Origin: Clostridia bacterium
GTDB lineage: Bacteria > Bacillota_A > Clostridia > Christensenellales > CAG-138
NCBI GenBank assembly: GCA_017553815.1
Contig: JAFZJT010000293.1
Location: 1 to 8,157, forward strand
Length of the DNA: 8,157 nucleotides
Direction: 5' to 3'
A program made the translations under genes and the position numbers. How positions within the stretch are numbered: the stretch's first letter is position 1; the number at the start of each line of letters is the position of its first letter. The notes beneath the pieces were generated by a model that saw nothing but the letters and a program-made list of their open reading frames with translations, was not told the origin of the DNA and did not search any database. Below, one piece after another: positions 307 to 8,157 of the stretch.

Positions 307-1557
307 TTAGAGCGGCATCCTGTCCCCGAAGAATATCTCAAGCCGGGCATGTATCTGCGCCCAATCCCTACGCTTGCCCGTCCACTTCCGTGTGATGTCC
401 ATAGCGGCAAGATAGAGCATCTTGAGAAGAGCATCGTCATTGGGGAAAACAGCCTTGTTCTTCGTCACTTTTCTCAGCTGCCGATTGAAATTTTCAATGG
501 CGTTGGTGGTGTAGATGAGAGTCCTGATCTCCTGCGGATACTTGAAATAGGTCGCAAGCTCCGGCCGGTTTTCTCGCCGGGACTTGGATATCTTGGGATA
601 TTTCGAGTCCCATTTTGCGGCGAATTCATCGAGTGCGTAGAGCGCCGTCGGCTCGTCGACCGCACCGTAAACCGCTTTCAGATCGACTGTAAGCGCCTTG
701 ATATCCTTGTAGGAAACATACTTTGTGCTGCTGCGTATCTGATGGACGATGCAATGCTGTACCTCTGTTTTTGGATAAACAGCCTGTATTGCTTCAGGAA
801 ATCCGGTCAAGCCGTCAACACAGGCTATCAGGATATCCTCCAAACCACGGTTTTTCATTCCGTTGAGGATGGAGAGCCAGAACCTTGCACTCTCGTTTTC
901 CCCAACGTACATACCAAGAACATCTTTCCTGCCGTCAAGGTCGATGCCGATAGCGATATAAACTGCCTTCTTTATAATGCGCCCTTCACTGCGTACATGG
1001 TAGTGTATCGCATCCATGAACACCACGGCATATACGCTCTCAAGCGGCCGCTGCTGCCATTCCTTCACCACAGGCAGTATCTTGTCCGTCACTCGGCTTA
1101 TCGTGAAATCCGATACCTCAAGACCGTAAATGTCCATGATGTGTGCCGAAATATCGTTAGTTGTCATACCTTTTGCATACATCGACAGTATCTTTTCTTC
1201 GATGTCGCCGGCAAGTGTCGTCTGCTGTTTTTTCACAAGCTGCGGCTCTAATTCGCCCTCCCGATCCCTCGGGATCGCAAGCTCCAATTCGCCGAAGCTC
1301 GTTTTCATCGTCTTTCGGCTGTGTCCGTTCCGGCTGTTGGTGCCCGTCTTGTTCTTGTAGTCGTACTTACTGTAGCCGAGTTTCTCGTCGAGCTCTGCTT
1401 CAAGACCGTTCTCGAGTATCGCTCCTACCATCTTGCGCAAAAGCTCGTGCAGATCCGACAGGTCATTCACGTTGAAATTCGTCAATACCGCCTGTATCTG
1501 CTTCTTCGCAAGCTCGTTTGCTGCCCGCTCTTCAGGGCTGTCCTTGTACTTTGGCAT
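307..1557 (-). CDS. IS256-family transposase
   Basis: This is a DDE transposase that cuts and joins the ends of its own element. The 416-aa length is normal and the frame is intact. Visible features are the N-terminal region with a GYSKYDYKNK stretch followed by SRNGHSRKT (about 61-83), first catalytic Asp D182 in VFMDAIHYHVR, second Asp D248 in ACVDGLTGFPEAI, the C-x2-H pair C269/H272 in HCIVHQIR, and catalytic Glu E355 in TTNAIENFNRQLR. The start is placed at 1557 rather than 1572. GGAGG (1565-1569) sits 7 bases before this ATG and lies inside the longer reading. Transcription probably starts from a promoter in the right end of the element. It appears functional; activity was not tested. 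Confidence 0.95.
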   Translation of the reverse strand: MPKYKDSPEERAANELAKKQIQAVLTNFNVNDLSDLHELLRKMVGAILENGLEAELDEKLGYSKYDYKNKTGTNSRNGHSRKTMKTSFGELELAIPRDREGELEPQLVKKQQTTLAGDIEEKILSMYAKGMTTNDISAHIMDIYGLEVSDFTISRVTDKILPVVKEWQQRPLESVYAVVFMDAIHYHVRSEGRIIKKAVYIAIGIDLDGRKDVLGMYVGENESARFWLSILNGMKNRGLEDILIACVDGLTGFPEAIQAVYPKTEVQHCIVHQIRSSTKYVSYKDIKALTVDLKAVYGAVDEPTALYALDEFAAKWDSKYPKISKSRRENRPELATYFKYPQEIRTLIYTTNAIENFNRQLRKVTKNKAVFPNDDALLKMLYLAAMDITRKWTGKRRDWAQIHARLEIFFGDRMPL

Positions 1558-1583
1558 GTTAATTCCTCCCATATGGCTTTTCT

Positions 1584-1819: not shown

Positions 1820-2191
1820 ATGATGAAAGCAACCGAAAGCTTCACGATCACCTACACCGAGAAGGACGGCCTTCTCTATCCCGACCTTATGTTGCCGGAG
1901 CAATCCGGAGAGGACATTGGCCGCTTCGGCAGAATGCGAAAGCGCTATCTCAAGGAGCATCGCAAGGCGTACTATTCGCTTCTTTGCATGAAACTTGAAC
2001 TCAACTACCATCTGCGCGAGATCAACAGGCAGGCGCTTGAGCAGATCGAGCTTATCACTTCCCAGCTCGCCCAAGCCGAAGGCGTAACCGAGGAACTCAA
2101 AGCCCGCGATCAGCTTGGCTGGGTACAGGCTATGAACTCATGCAGGGCGCGGGCGGAGGAAATCGTTATTACAGAAATAGTGTTATCATGA
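1820..2191 (+). CDS. tnpV: TnpV-family transposon-encoded protein
   Basis: A small (123 aa), soluble, charged protein with no catalytic motif. It has the TnpV pattern: a short N-terminal beta region, then LMLPEQSGEDIGRFGRMRKR (about 28-47), YLKEHRKAYY (48-57), a helical section with LNYHLREINRQALEQIELI, and a C-terminal helix near QLGWVQAMNS followed by RARAEEIVITEIV. TnpV genes travel with serine-recombinase transposons and conjugative elements of Clostridia; their biochemical role is not established. GGAGG (1807-1811) lies 8 bases before the ATG at 1820, and a second ATG follows at once (1823). It converges on the fic gene across a shared terminator hairpin. I found no convincing promoter in 1663-1819, which otherwise shows only a small TCGGC/GCCGA stem (about 1785-1800). 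Confidence 0.85.
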   Translation: MMKATESFTITYTEKDGLLYPDLMLPEQSGEDIGRFGRMRKRYLKEHRKAYYSLLCMKLELNYHLREINRQALEQIELITSQLAQAEGVTEELKARDQLGWVQAMNSCRARAEEIVITEIVLS

Positions 2192-2274: not shown

Positions 2275-3318
2275 TCAAATCGTTTTTCTGATGTAATATG
2301 TCGATCTGCCGCCGCCCTGCTTTTCGATCTCGCCGAGTTCGCAGAGCCTGCGGAGATGGCGTTCGACCGATGAGTTGCTCATAGATGGCACAAGCTCGGC
2401 AACTTCAATCTTGGTAAACCTGCCTATTCGGGTTTTTACGGCGTTGCGCACGGTATCGAGCGGCGAAACCGAAACAAGCTGCATTCGCTCCTCGAAATCG
2501 CGGTACGCGGCGATGATCGTTCCGAGCAGATACTTGATAAACGGCGTTGGATCATCCTCTCCGCCGTGCCAACCGTGCTGCGAGGCTTCGAGCGAGTCAT
2601 AATAATCATCTTTCGTATGCGCGATCTTCGCCTCAAGCGAAATGTATTTGCCTATCTCATAGCCGCTGCGATAGAGCAGCAGCGTGGTTAAAAGGCGTGA
2701 CATTCTGCCGTTTCCGTCGATAAACGGATGGATGCAGAGAAAATCGTGGATGAAACACGGGATTATCAGCAGCGGATCGACGCTGCCATCGCCCACGGCA
2801 ATATTGTACGCCTCACAGATCTCGCGCATCGCATCCGGCGTTTCATACGGCGCAAGCGGCGTGAACAGCACAAACTGTTTGCCAACGCCATCGGTCGCGG
2901 TGATATAGTTTTGCACATTCTTAAACGAGCCGCCGAACGCACTGTCCGTATGGCTGAACATTATCTTGTGGAGCTGCAAAATATAGTTCGGCTCAAGCGG
3001 AATGTACTCGAAATTTTCATGCACCGTGTTCAGCGCATCACGATAGCCGGCGATCTCCTTTTCATCACGGGTGCACGGCGCGGTCTTCTCGCTCATAAGC
3101 TGCCTAAGGCGCGTATCGGTGGTGCGTATGCCCTCTATCGCGTTGGACGATTCCGTGCTCTGCACCTTGGCGATCTCAATAAGCCGGTCGAGTTCATCCG
3201 GTTTTTGCCGCAGATATAAAGCCTGACGGCCCTTCAATTCGTGGATCTGGGAAAGATAGTTTATGATCTCATTATCCCAAGCCTTGTTCTTCAAATAGGA
3301 ATAATCAAAGCTTCGCAT
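2275..3318 (-). CDS. Fic-family protein (class II, predicted AMPylase) with C-terminal winged helix
   Basis: Fic proteins usually transfer AMP from ATP to a hydroxyl side chain of a target protein. The full active-site motif HPFIDGNGRMSR is present with catalytic H197 (residues 197-208). The flap (about GVGKQFVLFTPL, 144-155) precedes it. SNAIEG (S58, E62, G63) matches the inhibitory (S/T)xxxE(G/N) helix. Its N-terminal position makes this class II, self-inhibited within one chain. Residues about 285-347 (TRIGRFTKIEVAELV, then SNSSVERHLRRLCELGEIEKQG) look like a winged-helix DNA-binding domain, so the protein may also act at DNA. The 347-aa length is usual. The start at 3318 is preferred: GAGGTG (3325-3330) is 6 bases upstream but directly abuts the alternative ATG at 3324. 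A longer reading from 3450 has no good ribosome site and runs through the promoter and the inverted repeat. No separate antitoxin gene is visible. The target is unknown. Confidence 0.93.
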   Translation of the reverse strand: MRSFDYSYLKNKAWDNEIINYLSQIHELKGRQALYLRQKPDELDRLIEIAKVQSTESSNAIEGIRTTDTRLRQLMSEKTAPCTRDEKEIAGYRDALNTVHENFEYIPLEPNYILQLHKIMFSHTDSAFGGSFKNVQNYITATDGVGKQFVLFTPLAPYETPDAMREICEAYNIAVGDGSVDPLLIIPCFIHDFLCIHPFIDGNGRMSRLLTTLLLYRSGYEIGKYISLEAKIAHTKDDYYDSLEASQHGWHGGEDDPTPFIKYLLGTIIAAYRDFEERMQLVSVSPLDTVRNAVKTRIGRFTKIEVAELVPSMSNSSVERHLRRLCELGEIEKQGGGRSTYYIRKTI

Positions 3319-3346
3319 TTTCATCACCTCGATCTTATTCTCGTCA

Positions 3347-3375
3347 ATTATAGCGAATTTGATGCGAATAATCAA
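3347..3375 (-). promoter_or_regulatory. Predicted fic promoter, near consensus
   Basis: On the minus strand TTGATT (3375-3370) and a perfect TATAAT (3352-3347) are separated by exactly 17 bases. The -10 lies 28 bases upstream of the chosen ATG at 3318. This shows fic can be transcribed independently of the nuclease-helicase gene and supports the start at 3318 over 3450. Confidence 0.75.
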
Positions 3376-3384
3376 GTTCTTGAT
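3371..3384. promoter_or_regulatory. Palindrome overlapping the fic -35 box (possible operator)
   Basis: ATCAAG-TT-CTTGAT is a perfect 6-bp inverted repeat with a 2-base centre. It covers five of the six -35 bases. On the minus strand the heptamer GCATCAA occurs twice in the vicinity, once entering the palindrome and once inside the promoter spacer. A dimeric repressor bound here would block the promoter. The Fic winged helix is one candidate regulator; that is inference. Confidence 0.4.
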
Positions 3385-3417
3385 GCAATTATCTTTTCGA
3401 GTTCCATCATAGTAATT

Positions 3418-3472
3418 CACCGATTCTCGTCTCGAAACGGCATTTTCCACATCATCAAGACGAGAATCGGTG
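3418..3472 (+). repeat. Perfect 15-bp inverted repeat upstream of fic
   Basis: CACCGATTCTCGTCT (3418-3432) and its exact complement (3458-3472) flank a 25-nt loop. On the plus strand TTTTTC follows directly (3473-3478), giving terminator form, but no plus-strand gene lies upstream to need it. It sits near the boundary where base composition drops from about half G+C to AT-rich. It may be a terminator, a protein-binding site or a relic of an insertion. Confidence 0.6.
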
Positions 3473-3696
3473 TTTTTCTAACTACGTGTGAGACGTAAGA
3501 TTCTGTGAAGTTGTTTCTTATAAAGCCATACGTAAGAAGTAATATAGTAAAATTCCCAAAAATCACTTCACAATGGCTCATATATCACAGAGCTGCCAGC
3601 ATAAACTACGTTGTTTGCAATTCGTGGTCGGAAAGTTTACCAACTGTAAACCGGAATTCTATAGTATGGTTAGTGGATTCCGCATTTTTACCCCTT
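3473..3696. other. AT-rich intergenic stretch between nuclease-helicase and fic, no gene seen
   Basis: Together with the fic promoter region, this makes a gap of about 380 bases without a supported gene. I see a 6-bp hairpin GTTTAC/GTAAAC (3635-3640 and 3646-3651) about 45 bases past the helicase stop, without a U tract on the minus strand, and a distant 8-bp inverted pair TGTGAAGT/ACTTCACA (3504-3511, 3565-3572). A plus-strand GTG frame of 73 codons (3505-3726) has no ribosome site and no recognisable content, so I do not call it. Confidence 0.5.
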
Positions 3697-5019
3697 TTAC
3701 GTGCTCATTGCTTTAATTCTAAGTAGTTCTATATACAGCAAAGGATTATCGAGCACGATTATTTTGAGTTCATCTACTACACGGGTAACAATCTGGTAGA
3801 GCATTCCTGATGCGCTATAATAGCTATTTTTCGCTTGCAGCTTTCCACTTTCCGAATACCGGAAATTCTTGTCCATGACAAAAACAACTTTTGAGAACTC
3901 CTGTCCGATAACGCCATGTGCATTAAACTCACCTAGCTCTGTAAGTTCATTGTATGGATCGGGATCATACGTTGAAGTTGTATATGTAATTGCAGTCCAT
4001 CCCGATTCGCGCAAAAACGTCATATAATCTTTAGCAGATTCATAACTGTCAAAATAATCCACCGTTACGCAATCATAGTTAAGATTATCGTGGCTCTTGC
4101 CCTTATCAAACATATTCGTAATGAAGGATGCCATTGCCTTATTTGTTCGTATTTTGTTTGTAAGTCTCTTTCTTGACAATGTTACATTTGGATAGTTCTG
4201 CGATAGATACTCACTTACATCAAGGGTTTCTCCGGTGCGTAGGTATTGTTTTGTGTCAAACGAAAAGAACAGCGGTATCTGTGCTTCAACAGACTTATCC
4301 ACTAATGCGGATAATTGAGGTGCTCGAATCCTTTGAGACTCATCAACAAATACAATCGAGTAGTCGCTTATGGAAAGGACGGTTTTGTCTCGTGGGATAT
4401 TTTTAATCGAGATAATATTCCACCCATATTTCTCTTTCAACTTCTCATGTCCTTGATTCAGAATACCGCAGTGAACAATCAAGACTTTTTTATCTCCCTC
4501 GTGGAACGATTTGGCAATATCATACATCGTTAGCGTTTTTCCTGTACCAGCATTTGCTGATAAGCAAAAAAACATAAACGGTGTTTCTTTAAGCTCATTT
4601 ATCGTTTCTTCTTTAACTCTTTTCTGTGCACTCGTTAAGAAATAGCTTCCAAGTATAAAAGCATCAGTCGAATTAAAGGGAGAAATAAGATAATTGGATG
4701 GTATAAAAAGCCTATCCGGATCAATTGAATAATCAATTACTTGGTTGCGCATATATTGAGCAACAACGTCTGGGGCAACGCGAATGACAGAGTCCTTTCC
4801 CAAATATTGATAAAAACCATCGTTTTCAACATATGTAAAAATGTGAGTAGTCCTATTCAGAAACTGAAGATAGTAGTAGTTTTCATGCATTTGCTTTAAT
4901 ATCTTTTTTTCCTTTTGAGCAATCTTCAGTTCGCTTTTAATTTCAATATTGAGTATGAAGCCGCTTCCGAACCTCAGCAAATCGAATTCCTTCCCGATCT
5001 GTGCAATAGAATAACTCAC
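3697..5019 (-). CDS. DUF2075/Schlafen-group-3-type SF1 helicase, with the core of a PD-(D/E)xK-like nuclease domain
   Basis: A predicted ATP-driven nucleic-acid helicase or translocase, 440 aa from the GTG at 5019. Visible motifs are Walker A SANAGTGKT (154-162), Walker B VFVDESQ (DESQ 226-229, a DExQ box), motif III-like SFDTKQ (253-258), KIRTN with MASFI (289-300), motif V-like AHGVIGQEF (367-375) and a degenerate motif VI LYQIVTRVV (407-415). Residues 11-28, EFDLLRF and then NIEIKSE, give the D13...E26-x-K28 arrangement of PD-(D/E)xK nucleases, followed by a helix (about 35-54) and a strand (THIFTYV). The first strand of that domain is encoded upstream in another frame (5016-5204), so this GTG frame alone starts inside the fold. 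No ribosome site precedes the GTG. The gene is AT-rich compared with its neighbours: sampled line 4561-4620 is 28% G+C, against 55% at 2761-2820 and 50% at 6481-6540. A DNA/RNA immunity role is inferred from architecture. Confidence 0.85.
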   Translation of the reverse strand: MSYSIAQIGKEFDLLRFGSGFILNIEIKSELKIAQKEKKILKQMHENYYYLQFLNRTTHIFTYVENDGFYQYLGKDSVIRVAPDVVAQYMRNQVIDYSIDPDRLFIPSNYLISPFNSTDAFILGSYFLTSAQKRVKEETINELKETPFMFFCLSANAGTGKTLTMYDIAKSFHEGDKKVLIVHCGILNQGHEKLKEKYGWNIISIKNIPRDKTVLSISDYSIVFVDESQRIRAPQLSALVDKSVEAQIPLFFSFDTKQYLRTGETLDVSEYLSQNYPNVTLSRKRLTNKIRTNKAMASFITNMFDKGKSHDNLNYDCVTVDYFDSYESAKDYMTFLRESGWTAITYTTSTYDPDPYNELTELGEFNAHGVIGQEFSKVVFVMDKNFRYSESGKLQAKNSYYSASGMLYQIVTRVVDELKIIVLDNPLLYIELLRIKAMST

Positions 5020-5025
5020 AAAAAA
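5016..5025 (-). promoter_or_regulatory. Slippery heptamer T TTT TTG followed by TGA: -1 frame junction
   Basis: The upstream frame reads GAT GGT TTT TTG TGA. The heptamer at 5025-5019 fits X XXY YYZ in the zero frame, and a -1 slip puts the next codon at GTG (5019-5017), precisely in the helicase frame. The joined peptide, ending MAHFDGF and continuing VSYSIAQIGKEFDLL, reads as one continuous nuclease domain. One extra T in the six-base run would give the same fusion. I did not find a clear stimulatory SD or pseudoknot. Confidence 0.55.
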
Positions 5026-5204
5026 CCATCAAAATGAGCCATGTTGCACCCATATTGCTTCATTATGGTGCAAAAGCTGCCCAAGTTTCTAATTTCGTGC
5101 TTCTTAAGAACCTTAAAGCGCTTATCTATATCTGCGCCAACTGCCTCAGCAGCGGCATCCCCCTGGAAAACAGCAATAATATTTCTCGGCTTCATTCTTT
5201 GCAT
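5016..5204 (-). CDS. N-terminal segment of the nuclease-helicase (frame-separated)
   Basis: A 62-aa frame starting MQRMKPRNIIAVFQGDAAAE and ending MAHFDGFL. It has no complete domain of its own. The helical segment 20-50 and the ending FDGF look like the first helix and first strand of the nuclease domain that continues in the helicase frame. It has the only good translation start of the pair: AAGGAG (5209-5214) lies 4 bases before ATG 5204, and a second ATG at 5195 is possible. It overlaps the GTG-started frame by four bases (GTGA). With a -1 shift the product would be 502 aa. It begins 11 bases after the DUF3800 stop, so the two genes are probably one operon. Alternatives are translational coupling by termination and restart, or a damaged gene. 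Confidence 0.7.
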   Translation of the reverse strand: MQRMKPRNIIAVFQGDAAAEAVGADIDKRFKVLKKHEIRNLGSFCTIMKQYGCNMAHFDGFL

Positions 5205-5208
5205 CTCG

Positions 5209-5214
5209 CTCCTT
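5209..5214 (-). promoter_or_regulatory. Ribosome binding site for the nuclease-helicase gene
   Basis: On the minus strand AAGGAG lies directly after the DUF3800 stop (TAA-TAAGGAG) and 4 bases before ATG 5204. It decides that translation starts in the 62-codon frame, not at the GTG of the helicase frame. Confidence 0.7.
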
Positions 5215-5215
5215 A

Positions 5216-5659
5216 TTAGAAAAGTTCATCCAACCGCCTTCGGAAAGGCGTCCTCTTGGGAATATCAACTACGCCGTATCCGACTATCGTCCCGTTGGCA
5301 TGGCAACGCATCCGGGGCTTAATGAATTCGTCGTATAGATCCGTCGCAAACTGATAATTTCCCGGTGATACGATCTTTCCGCGCAAATAGCCGTTCATTA
5401 CACCGGCAGCGTAATCGGCGAGCTGTATACCGGGGCTGTATAGACTGTTTTCAATCAATACGCCTTGGTATAAGTGTTTGTACCGGACAAAGTCACCCTG
5501 CATTGTAAATGCGTGACACGCCGCTTTGATCTGCTTGATCATGTCAGCATTTAATTCGTCCATCACAAACGATGCGAATCCGTTTTCCGAGCTCATATCC
5601 ATCTGTATTCTTTGGAATGCATCCTGCAAGTGAAACCCGTAAACCGTATTCTCATACAT
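5216..5659 (-). pseudogene. DUF3800 protein, C-terminal half (5' truncated)
   Basis: DUF3800 proteins are predicted to have an RNase H-like fold and are common on mobile elements; their activity is not established. About 147 codons remain, from MYENTVYGF to the stop. Recognisable parts are SFVMDELN (D34/E35) and the C-terminal signature SPGIQLADYAAGVMNGYL, with Q79 and D82 typical of the family. The N-terminal IDES-type strand expected in intact members is missing. At about 5660 the coding sense passes to a plus-strand fragment of another protein, so the gene was cut by recombination. ATG 5659 has no ribosome site. The remnant abuts the nuclease-helicase gene (11 bases), which suggests the two once worked together. 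Confidence 0.65.
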
Positions 5660-5668
5660 GTTACATGT
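5655..5668. repeat. Tandem TACATGT x2 at a recombination junction
   Basis: TACATGT occurs twice in direct contact (5655-5661, 5662-5668). Together they form a near-palindrome ACATG-TTA-CATGT. It lies exactly where the minus-strand DUF3800 coding ends and the plus-strand SNF2-type coding begins. Confidence 0.5.
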
Positions 5669-6076
5669 TCTGCCTACGATATTGCAAACGAGCTTGAAAG
5701 TCTGGATTTCAGCGATCTGGTCTATGTTTCCGACGAGGAGGTTGAGCAGTACCGCTTCCATGAACCGGCTGCGGAGGAAGCAGCAGAGACGCCGTTCCCG
5801 TATGCCGTGGGCGATACGGTATATCTGGAGGACGGCAAGCCGTTCATCATCGAGAGCATCGGAACCTTCGATATTTCCCTGCGCGACCCGACGCTTTTCT
5901 ATCCCATCTTCCGTGCGGAGAGCAAGGAGAGCTTTGAGCGGCTCATGGAACGCTTTCCCCAGCCGGAGAAAGCAGAACCGGAGCCCGCGACGGAGGAAGC
6001 GGAAGCGGTTCCCGGCTATCACACCGAGACCGAGGCCGTCTATCCGGCAGAGGAAACCCGTCTCCCGTATCGTTGA
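5669..6076 (+). pseudogene. Internal fragment of a large SNF2/DNA-methylase-type conjugative-element protein
   Basis: A stretch of 135 codons from SAYDIANELESLD to a TGA at 6074. The central part (AVGDTVYLEDGKPFIIESIG, then LRDPTLFYPIFRAESKESFERLMERFP) matches by recognition a segment found in the very large SNF2/N6-methylase proteins of Clostridia integrative elements. An acidic linker of the type found before their helicase region follows. Both ends are gone. No start codon with a ribosome site fits, and the methylase and helicase domains are absent. From about 6065 the sequence is that of a serine recombinase in another frame, which causes the stop. This is a relic of an earlier element; the exact left junction is uncertain. 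Confidence 0.65.
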
Positions 6077-6863
6077 GAACACGCATGAGCCGATCATCGA
6101 CAGAGACACCTTTGAAAAGGTTCAGGAAATCATGCGGCAGAGGAACGAGGAATACTTTGAAAAACTCGGAAGATTCAGCTATCTGGAAACGACCGAAAAC
6201 ATCCTCAAAGGACTGATATACTGCGCGGACTGCAAACGCCCGCTGGTACGGTACAAAAACGTGAGCCATAACAAGAAGCTGTGGTACACCTTCATCTGTC
6301 AGACACATTCAAACGATATAACGAGCTGTCCAAAGAAGAACATCCGTGAAGATGCGCTGATCCCCATGCTCATGCAGGCTATCCAAACGCAGATCGAGCT
6401 TGCCGCAGATATGGACGAGCTTGTGCGCAGGGTGAACAGTTCTCCCAAACACAGAAAGCGGACAGCCGATTTGCAAGGGCGGCTGGACGGCGCAAAGAAA
6501 GCACTCAAGCGCTATAACAATCTGTACGACAGTCTGTATCAGAACTATGTGGATAAGCTCATGACCGAGCAGGAATACATCACGCTGAAAAGCCGTTACA
6601 AAGCCGAAGCGGAGGAAGCGGAACGGCTGATTGAAGCTCTCACCCAGCAGCAGGCGGAAGAATCTGAGCACACGCCGGAAAATCGCTTTCTGACTGCGTT
6701 CGGGAGTTTCAAAGGCGAGGATACTCTTACAAAGGAAATGGCGCAGGCACTTATAGAGCGTGTGTATGTTGATGGAAGCAGCAATATTGAGATTATCTTC
6801 CGCTACCGTGACGAATACAGAGCGCTTTGTACATATCTTGAGGGAAAGGAGAATGGCGCATGA
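6066..6863 (+). pseudogene. Large serine recombinase (TnpX-like), C-terminal half
   Basis: About 265 codons starting at RIVENTHEPIIDRDTFEKVQ, the end of the recombinase domain. Next come a zinc ribbon with CADC and later Cys residues in FICQTHSNDITSC, a long helical coiled-coil section (about DLQGRLDGAKKALKRY to RLIEALTQQQ), and the usual end FGSFKGEDTLTKEMAQALIERVYVDG...IEIIFRYRDEY. The N-terminal resolvase domain with its catalytic Ser (some 300 residues) is missing, so it cannot recombine DNA alone. The frame stays open leftward only by chance over the SNF2-type fragment. ATG 6132 follows a weak AGGA and could start a short product. The stop overlaps the next recombinase start by 4 bases (ATGA), so the two were an operon. 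Confidence 0.85.
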
Positions 6864-8157
6864 CTACTGCAATTTATCTTCGTATTTCAAGCGAAGATGT
6901 TGACTTGAAAACCGGCGAAAAAGACGAATCCGAAAGCATATCCAATCAGCGCCGTCTCCTTCGGGATTATGTAAGCGCTCATGCGGATTTATCCGGCTCT
7001 GAAATATTGGAATTTTGTGATGACGGTTGGAGTGGTACGAATTTCGAGCGTCCCGCAATAAAGGAGCTTTTAGAGCAGGTTAAGCGTGGGAAGATCAACT
7101 GCATTGTGGTCAAAGACCTCTCCCGCTTTGGGCGTGATTATATCACCGTAGGAGATTACATCTCCCGCGTCTTCCCGTTCCTCGGAGTGCGCTTTATATC
7201 CGTCAACGACGGCTTTGACAGCATCAATCCGCAGGACATAGACAGCCTCGATACATCGTTTCGGACGCTGATCTATGACCTGTATAGCCGCGATCTCTCC
7301 CGCAAGGTAAGAAGTGCGAGAAAAGCAAGAGCGGAACACGGTGCGTTTCTCAGCCCTTACGCACCGTATGGGTATATAAAAGACCCGGAGGACAAAAACC
7401 ATCTGCTTGTGGACGAGGAAGCTGCCTCCGTGATCCGGCGCATCTTTCAAAGAGCGGCGGACGGGCTAAAGACATGGGAAATCGCCGCAGAACTCAATGG
7501 AGACGGTGTTATTTCTCCGAAAAACTACAAGATTGATGCGGGCTGCACAAGAAAGCCGTGGCGAAGCATTCAGGAAGACAATTTCTGGACAGCCAATTTG
7601 GTTGGAAAGTTTCTGCGGGACGAACGGTATATCGGCAAGGTGGTGTTCGGCAAACGGGTTCGGGACGCTGTGGGCAGCACCCACACGGTAAAAATCTCCC
7701 GGAACGACTGGATCGTTGTCCCTGACAGGCACGAAGCGATTGTTTCAGAATCATTGTTTGAAGCGGCGCAGACCTGCATGAGAGAGTATCGGGAGTGTGC
7801 ATCACCGACCGACAGCGACAAGCCGTTAAAGCGGAAAGTGATCTGCGGCGTTTGCGGTCATGTTATGAAACGGGACGGCAGGAAGAACGCATCGTATTCC
7901 TGTGGAACAAAAAGGCTGAATACCAGATTTGACTGTCCGGATGAAAAAGTGCCGGAGGCTGATATTCTGGATGCTGTGATGGAAACGATCCAAGTGTATG
8001 CACAATACGCGGTCAGCATTGATCGGCTGTTAATAGCAAGGCAGAACCAGAGACAGCTTGACCGGAAGCAGGCGCAAAGACAGCTTCAATCGCTCCAAAG
8101 CAAAAAGGCGCAGCTCGACAAACGGCTGCAAGACCTTTATGAGCAGTTGGTGGAGGG
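6860..8157 (+). CDS. Large serine recombinase (TnpX-like), 3' end beyond the window
   Basis: A site-specific recombinase that excises and integrates mobile elements through a phosphoserine link to DNA. There are 432 codons open to the window edge; family members run about 500-600. The catalytic domain is complete: Y6-L-R8-I-S10 with nucleophile S10, then KDLSRFGRD (85-93, catalytic Arg R89 and R92) and the long helix after about 130. The recombinase domain follows (about 160-300, including PYGYIKDPEDKNHLLVDEEA and IVSESLFEAAQ). A zinc ribbon has C329, C332, C348 and C359, and a Gln/Lys-rich coiled coil begins at about 390. The start is supported by AAAGGAG (6845-6851) 8 bases upstream and by the ATGA overlap with the preceding recombinase. 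Whether it moves the whole region or only a neighbouring element cannot be told without the attachment sites. Confidence 0.95.
   Translation, partial: MTTAIYLRISSEDVDLKTGEKDESESISNQRRLLRDYVSAHADLSGSEILEFCDDGWSGTNFERPAIKELLEQVKRGKINCIVVKDLSRFGRDYITVGDYISRVFPFLGVRFISVNDGFDSINPQDIDSLDTSFRTLIYDLYSRDLSRKVRSARKARAEHGAFLSPYAPYGYIKDPEDKNHLLVDEEAASVIRRIFQRAADGLKTWEIAAELNGDGVISPKNYKIDAGCTRKPWRSIQEDNFWTANLVGKFLRDERYIGKVVFGKRVRDAVGSTHTVKISRNDWIVVPDRHEAIVSESLFEAAQTCMREYRECASPTDSDKPLKRKVICGVCGHVMKRDGRKNASYSCGTKRLNTRFDCPDEKVPEADILDAVMETIQVYAQYAVSIDRLLIARQNQRQLDRKQAQRQLQSLQSKKAQLDKRLQDLYEQLVE

Follow-up and report, generated by a model that had tools for sequence, protein, structure and literature searches.

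A split reading frame at a slippery-type heptamer in an AbiO/Nhi-type nuclease-helicase gene of a Clostridia bacterium

A split gene, its products and its surroundings

Nhi is described as an enzyme encoded by one gene, with DNA-nicking and DNA-unwinding activity and a link to phage SSB (PMC12904381, PMC11811056, PMC10732053). In this study, we analyzed a stretch of 8,157 nucleotides from a Clostridia bacterium (contig JAFZJT010000293.1; hereafter the window), which contains a gene of this kind. Like Nhi (PADLOC PDLC02372; Staphylococcus epidermidis SERP2475), it holds nuclease and helicase parts in one gene, and like AbiO (PDLC02350) it matches the family model over nearly its full length; in contrast to both, the window copy has a split frame, broken after codon 62. 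Two minus-strand frames are involved, one of 62 codons (5204-5016) and one of 440 codons (5019-3697), the second lying in the -1 register. The relevant features are as follows.

5209..5214, minus strand: AAGGAG, ribosome-binding-site-like, 4 bases ahead of the ATG at 5204 (direct reading)
5016..5204, minus strand: first 62 codons of the AbiO/Nhi-type gene, with the stop TGA at 5018-5016; 7 differences from residues 1-62 of the homologue P0001
5019..5025, minus strand: run of six Ts (5025-5020) plus G, a heptamer that the upstream frame reads as T TTT TTG, with the stop immediately after
3697..5019, minus strand: second frame, 440 codons from GTG 5019-5017, encoding the remaining nuclease part and the helicase part; 16 differences from residues 63-502 of P0001
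4936..4989, minus strand: E73, D75, E88 and K90 (P0001 numbering), invariant in a 17-sequence alignment, unchanged in the window and all encoded after the break
4534..4557, minus strand: Walker A motif ANAGTGKT of the helicase part

The 62-codon frame ends GGT TTT TTG TGA, with TTTTTTG beginning at phase 2 of that frame, and the GTG that opens the 440-codon frame overlaps the stop as GTGA. The first-pass annotation had placed a -1 junction at exactly this point, and both its coordinates and its register are correct. Its anatomy of the locus also holds, namely a single gene continued in the -1 register, a stop right behind the heptamer and a nuclease part ahead of the helicase; its estimate of about 58 kDa for the joined product agrees with the mass of P0001, 58.1 kDa.

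Taken together, the pieces correspond to a single nuclease-helicase of AbiO/Nhi type, some 500 residues long. P0001, the best homologue among the 120 listed of 2606, is 502 residues in length and shares 96% identity with the 440-aa part; aligned to it separately and without gaps, the two pieces cover residues 1-62 and 63-502. The 440-aa piece matches the AbiO model at E 8.2e-135 (model positions 59-466 of 468) and the Nhi model at E 3.1e-133; the two score alike, and either name would fit. The match of the 62-aa piece alone to the AbiO model is weak (E 0.031), yet it falls at the N-terminal positions 1-56, and intact P0001 spans positions 1-466 of 468 (E 2.8e-145). Judged from these alignments, the two frames are parts of one gene, beyond chance. 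In the helicase part, AAA_30 and SLFN-g3_helicase (Schlafen group 3 helicase domain) exceed the Pfam cut-off. The structure model of P0001 (mean pLDDT 71.8, moderate confidence) aligns to SF1/SF2 helicases over residues 181-353, its N-terminal part being hardly probed by the structure search, and places the break inside the strand 61-64, ahead of the conserved residues 73-90. Of these, E73, D75, E88 and K90 are what we take to be a putative PD-(D/E)XK-type nuclease site. Across both pieces, the window retains all 210 residues that never vary among 17 homologues, a lenient test given that the 17 include the 96% identical P0001; among 265 columns where at least 16 of the 17 agree, 4 differ in the window, 3 of these in common with P0001. 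The gene resembles phage-defence enzymes, and would be a known kind of defence gene with an ordinary break. A working AbiO/Nhi enzyme requires a single continuous reading frame; since the frame here is split at 5025-5016, we file the gene as a broken copy rather than a working member.

The surroundings are rich in mobile elements.

307-1572, minus strand: Mutator-family transposase, full-length (Pfam)
1820-2191, plus strand: TnpV protein (Pfam)
2275-3450, minus strand: Fic-domain protein (Pfam)
5216..5680, minus strand: 3' part left of a DUF3800-like gene, ending 11 bases ahead of the ATG of the AbiO/Nhi-type gene (Pfam DUF3800, E 0.039, below cut-off)
5612-6076, plus strand: 154-codon frame with no Pfam match, overlapping the recombinase frame 5658-6863
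5658-6863, plus strand: recombinase frame with a Zn ribbon and the end of a Recombinase domain, lacking the resolvase domain (Pfam)
6860-8155, plus strand: large serine recombinase with Resolvase, Recombinase and Zn ribbon matches, incomplete at the end of the window (Pfam)

The similarity of the DUF3800-like remnant to the longer relatives P0125, P0127 and P0131 (233-234 aa) ends abruptly at 5680, amid transposase, TnpV and recombinase genes or fragments; these relatives carry about 75-85 further residues before the point matching 5680, and shorter ones are also among the listed matches (e.g. P0132, 129 aa). The DUF3800-like gene has been cut at a mobile-element junction, with the loss of its 5' part, and the overlapping frames at 5612-6076 and 5658-6863 look like a fusion of mobile-element fragments. 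Given this truncation, the AbiO/Nhi-type gene may be without its original promoter and under relaxed selection; our promoter scan of the window, which returned 9 sites against 6.3 expected, gave no minus-strand site from 5205 to 5800. A conserved pairing of the two genes was considered and rejected for the loci examined: at 25 of these, 18 of them distinct, tblastn with the DUF3800-like gene gave just two matches, both weak (E 0.091 and 0.32), in a set without the closest homologues P0001-P0012 (72-96% identical over the second piece). By megablast, the whole window matched nothing in phages, and in plasmids only a short stretch of the large serine recombinase was found, 84-87% identical to two plasmids, of Vescimonas and Subdoligranulum, which may point to a host of Oscillospirales type.

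The junction in relatives and the slippery heptamer

Programmed frameshifting at the junction had been offered as one possibility, with an alignment of homologues as the check. Our comparison speaks against it. From a protein search that gave 2606 relatives, the 120 listed ones were examined at the junction and all continue through it unbroken, as judged by a motif search for 106 and by eye for 14. Their lengths are 488-576 aa in 119 cases; the exception, P0038 (456 aa), begins 12 residues ahead of the junction and still crosses it. At the DNA level 27 loci were available, 20 of them distinct and 33-62% identical to P0001, and the frame is continuous across the junction in all 20, with none split there. 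The same annotation had reasoned that uninterrupted homologues devoid of the heptamer would mark an error or a simple mutation: uninterrupted they are, but an in-register slippery-type heptamer does occur in three of the distinct loci (L001, L002 and L024), inside an unbroken frame. In L001 and L002, the most similar loci with DNA, the site reads GGT TTT TTT ATT, a run of seven Ts (T7) that keeps the frame continuous; the window has six (T6) at this point. At this exact place T7 is missing from 18 of the 20 loci, the T7 of L013 being displaced by one codon, and 38 of the 106 homologues matched by motif carry Tyr instead of Phe at one of the two codons, so a T7 run is impossible in them. A T7 ancestry of the window tract is suggested by relatives of at most 62% identity. 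A second gene broken at the same point was sought with the 62-aa piece and none was found; the sole match, P0121 (95 aa), stays in frame past the junction (FFVSY) and diverges afterwards.

How telling is the heptamer itself? The window contains TTTTTTGTG a single time, and 40 of 200 shuffles contain it one or more times; a slippery heptamer at the break is not more than chance provides. We also simulated losses by removing each base in turn from 7 intact relatives (7 of 19 loci passed the gene filter), counting every in-register X XXY YYZ (Y = A or T) within the overlap where a -1 slip rejoins the frames. Such a heptamer was left by 1723 of 9888 one-base losses (8.7-21.8% per gene), and is therefore not rare at a break; since about one in six simulated losses in these 7 relatives leaves one, its position exactly at the frame break is weak evidence of recoding. 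Losses within seven-base A/T runs left a heptamer in 3 of 5 cases, and those within six-base runs in 0 of 27. A T7 tract minus one base reads T TTT TTG, and the heptamer therefore follows from the sequence itself. Stimulatory elements were likewise sought. Three downstream stretches, compared as pseudoknot-free folds, showed no excess folding over dinucleotide shuffles (z -0.31, 0.26 and -0.36), and inspection of the 30 bases upstream by eye revealed no Shine-Dalgarno-like element. Measured against the hallmarks of programmed -1 frameshifting, the junction has the in-register X XXY YYZ, while no such downstream structure was found and the frame transition is conserved in 0 of 20 loci. One hallmark of homopolymer phase variation, a long tract conserved at the site, is likewise absent, T7 being found exactly there in 2 of 20 loci and the window itself having T6. 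Transcriptional slippage was also considered and set aside: nine-base runs are reported to be under visible selection in many genomes (PMC1088944), and the T6 of the window is shorter. Our literature search for programmed frameshifting in anti-phage defence surfaced only ribosome profiling of phage infection, which does not prove absence.

Explanations for the break

Overall, we favor an unprogrammed, recent one-base contraction in the T run at codons 60-62 of an AbiO/Nhi-type gene in a relict defence locus, to which we assign a probability of about one in two. Among the five origins that had been offered for the junction, mutation and base-call error emerge as the best supported, while programmed frameshifting failed the comparative test. 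Under a contraction, translation would start normally at 5204 and run into the TGA at 5018, yielding a 62-residue peptide; full-length enzyme would not be expected beyond background slippage, and function would probably be lost. The heptamer would be a by-product, a T7 tract such as that of L001 and L002 reading T TTT TTG once shortened to six Ts. The locus would be a relict also in that the upstream gene has lost its 5' part to a mobile-element junction. The base would then be truly missing in the cell, with T7 the probable starting state. An accurate record, and hence a real lesion, is favored because the other A/T runs of 6-7 in the gene (T7, A7 and A6) all leave the frame intact, and because no break is seen in the other long frames (transposase, TnpV, Fic and the second recombinase), to the extent that the window covers them.

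The next most likely explanation, which we hold as a tentative second, is that the break exists only in the record, through a homopolymer base-call or assembly error, the gene being intact. None of the 210 family-invariant residues is altered, from which it follows that the lesion is either recent or absent from the cell; full conservation fits a very recent lesion, and equally a record error or a product under selection. Similarly, the best homologue of the second piece (among the 120 listed of 2606) is uninterrupted at 96% identity. Antonov et al. 2013 (PMC3711429) would sooner attribute frameshifts that are unclustered but supported by homology to sequencing errors than to genuine indels. 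The window break is like these singletons in being a single break with homology on both sides and no second identical break found, and differs from the account given there in its slippery heptamer, which could mislead toward recoding. Against a record error stand the frames left intact by the four other A/T runs of at least six bases that the window contains, of which three lie in this gene, as well as the unbroken neighboring genes and the separate decay upstream, that is, the DUF3800-like truncation. Thus, a contraction in the genome remains our preferred reading.

No positive evidence was found for slippage, phase variation or coupled restart. Ribosomes slipping -1 on T TTT TTG, whether by design or as leaky compensation, would make some full-length enzyme, and the register of the heptamer, the stop directly behind it and the intact invariant residues would all suit this; compensatory frameshifting over indels has moreover been described (PMC5009743). 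The slip would give Phe-Leu-Val, in which Leu replaces the Phe or Tyr of most relatives, although it occurs in the continuous homologue P0103. Nonetheless, we consider slippage improbable: the split is conserved at 0 of 20 loci and the in-register heptamer at only 3 of 20, Tyr stands at a Phe position in 38 of 106 homologues, neither downstream structure nor an upstream Shine-Dalgarno-like element was detected, and heptamers arise by chance in simulated losses. A phase-variable T6/T7 switch of the defence gene strikes us as marginally less probable. Two relatives do have T7 at the same place, and phase variation by homopolymers is known, genes for DNA modification included (Antonov et al., PMC3711429); yet tracts of six or seven Ts are short where these authors apply a criterion of at least 7 nt of poly-A/T, the exact-place T7 is missing in 18 of 20 loci, and no off-variant appeared among the 120 listed homologues (of 2606), with the short-piece search returning only the unbroken P0121. 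We would give even less credence to a tunable throttle, in which T6 would allow a trace of full-length enzyme through -1 slippage and T7, as in the two relatives, constitutive synthesis, so that a costly defence enzyme would toggle between low and high dose; if true, it would amount to dosage control for a single-gene anti-phage nuclease-helicase. Least probable of all is termination at the TGA coupled to restart at the overlapping GTG (5019-5017), producing a shortened 440-residue enzyme of about 51 kDa. The GTGA overlap would permit it, and the putative catalytic residues E73, D75, E88 and K90 lie after the break together with the whole helicase part; but a two-frame arrangement of this kind occurs in none of the 120 homologues listed (of 2606), inspection by eye shows no ribosome-binding site ahead of the GTG, and the product would lose the front helices and have the first long-domain strand of the model, E61-64, cut (mean pLDDT 71.8). 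With a contraction or a record error as the leading readings, the locus as found is of little import: a familiar kind of defence gene among mobile elements, in a copy that is either broken or wrongly recorded.

Occurrence of the family

Overlapping draws of genomes gave a match at E 1e-60 in 4 of 394, 2 of 95, 4 of 392, 2 of 391 and 3 of 400 genomes, and none of the loci from these draws exceeded 62% identity to P0001 (tblastn). A scan of genome contigs confirmed at least 7 relative loci, and viral contigs contributed 7 distant ones. The two junction patterns searched against viral contigs had no match there, and a distant blastn of positions 3600-5660 against plasmids and phages returned nothing.

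In the Agathobaculum desmolans record (L002), the AbiO/Nhi-type gene is itself interrupted (about 339), just upstream of residue 54, with foreign sequence, presumably a transposase end, replacing its first ~54 residues; this disruption lies near the place of the window break and came about by different means. Seven relatives (L008-L014) reside on predicted viral contigs of IMG/VR, and thus the family also travels with phages or prophages.
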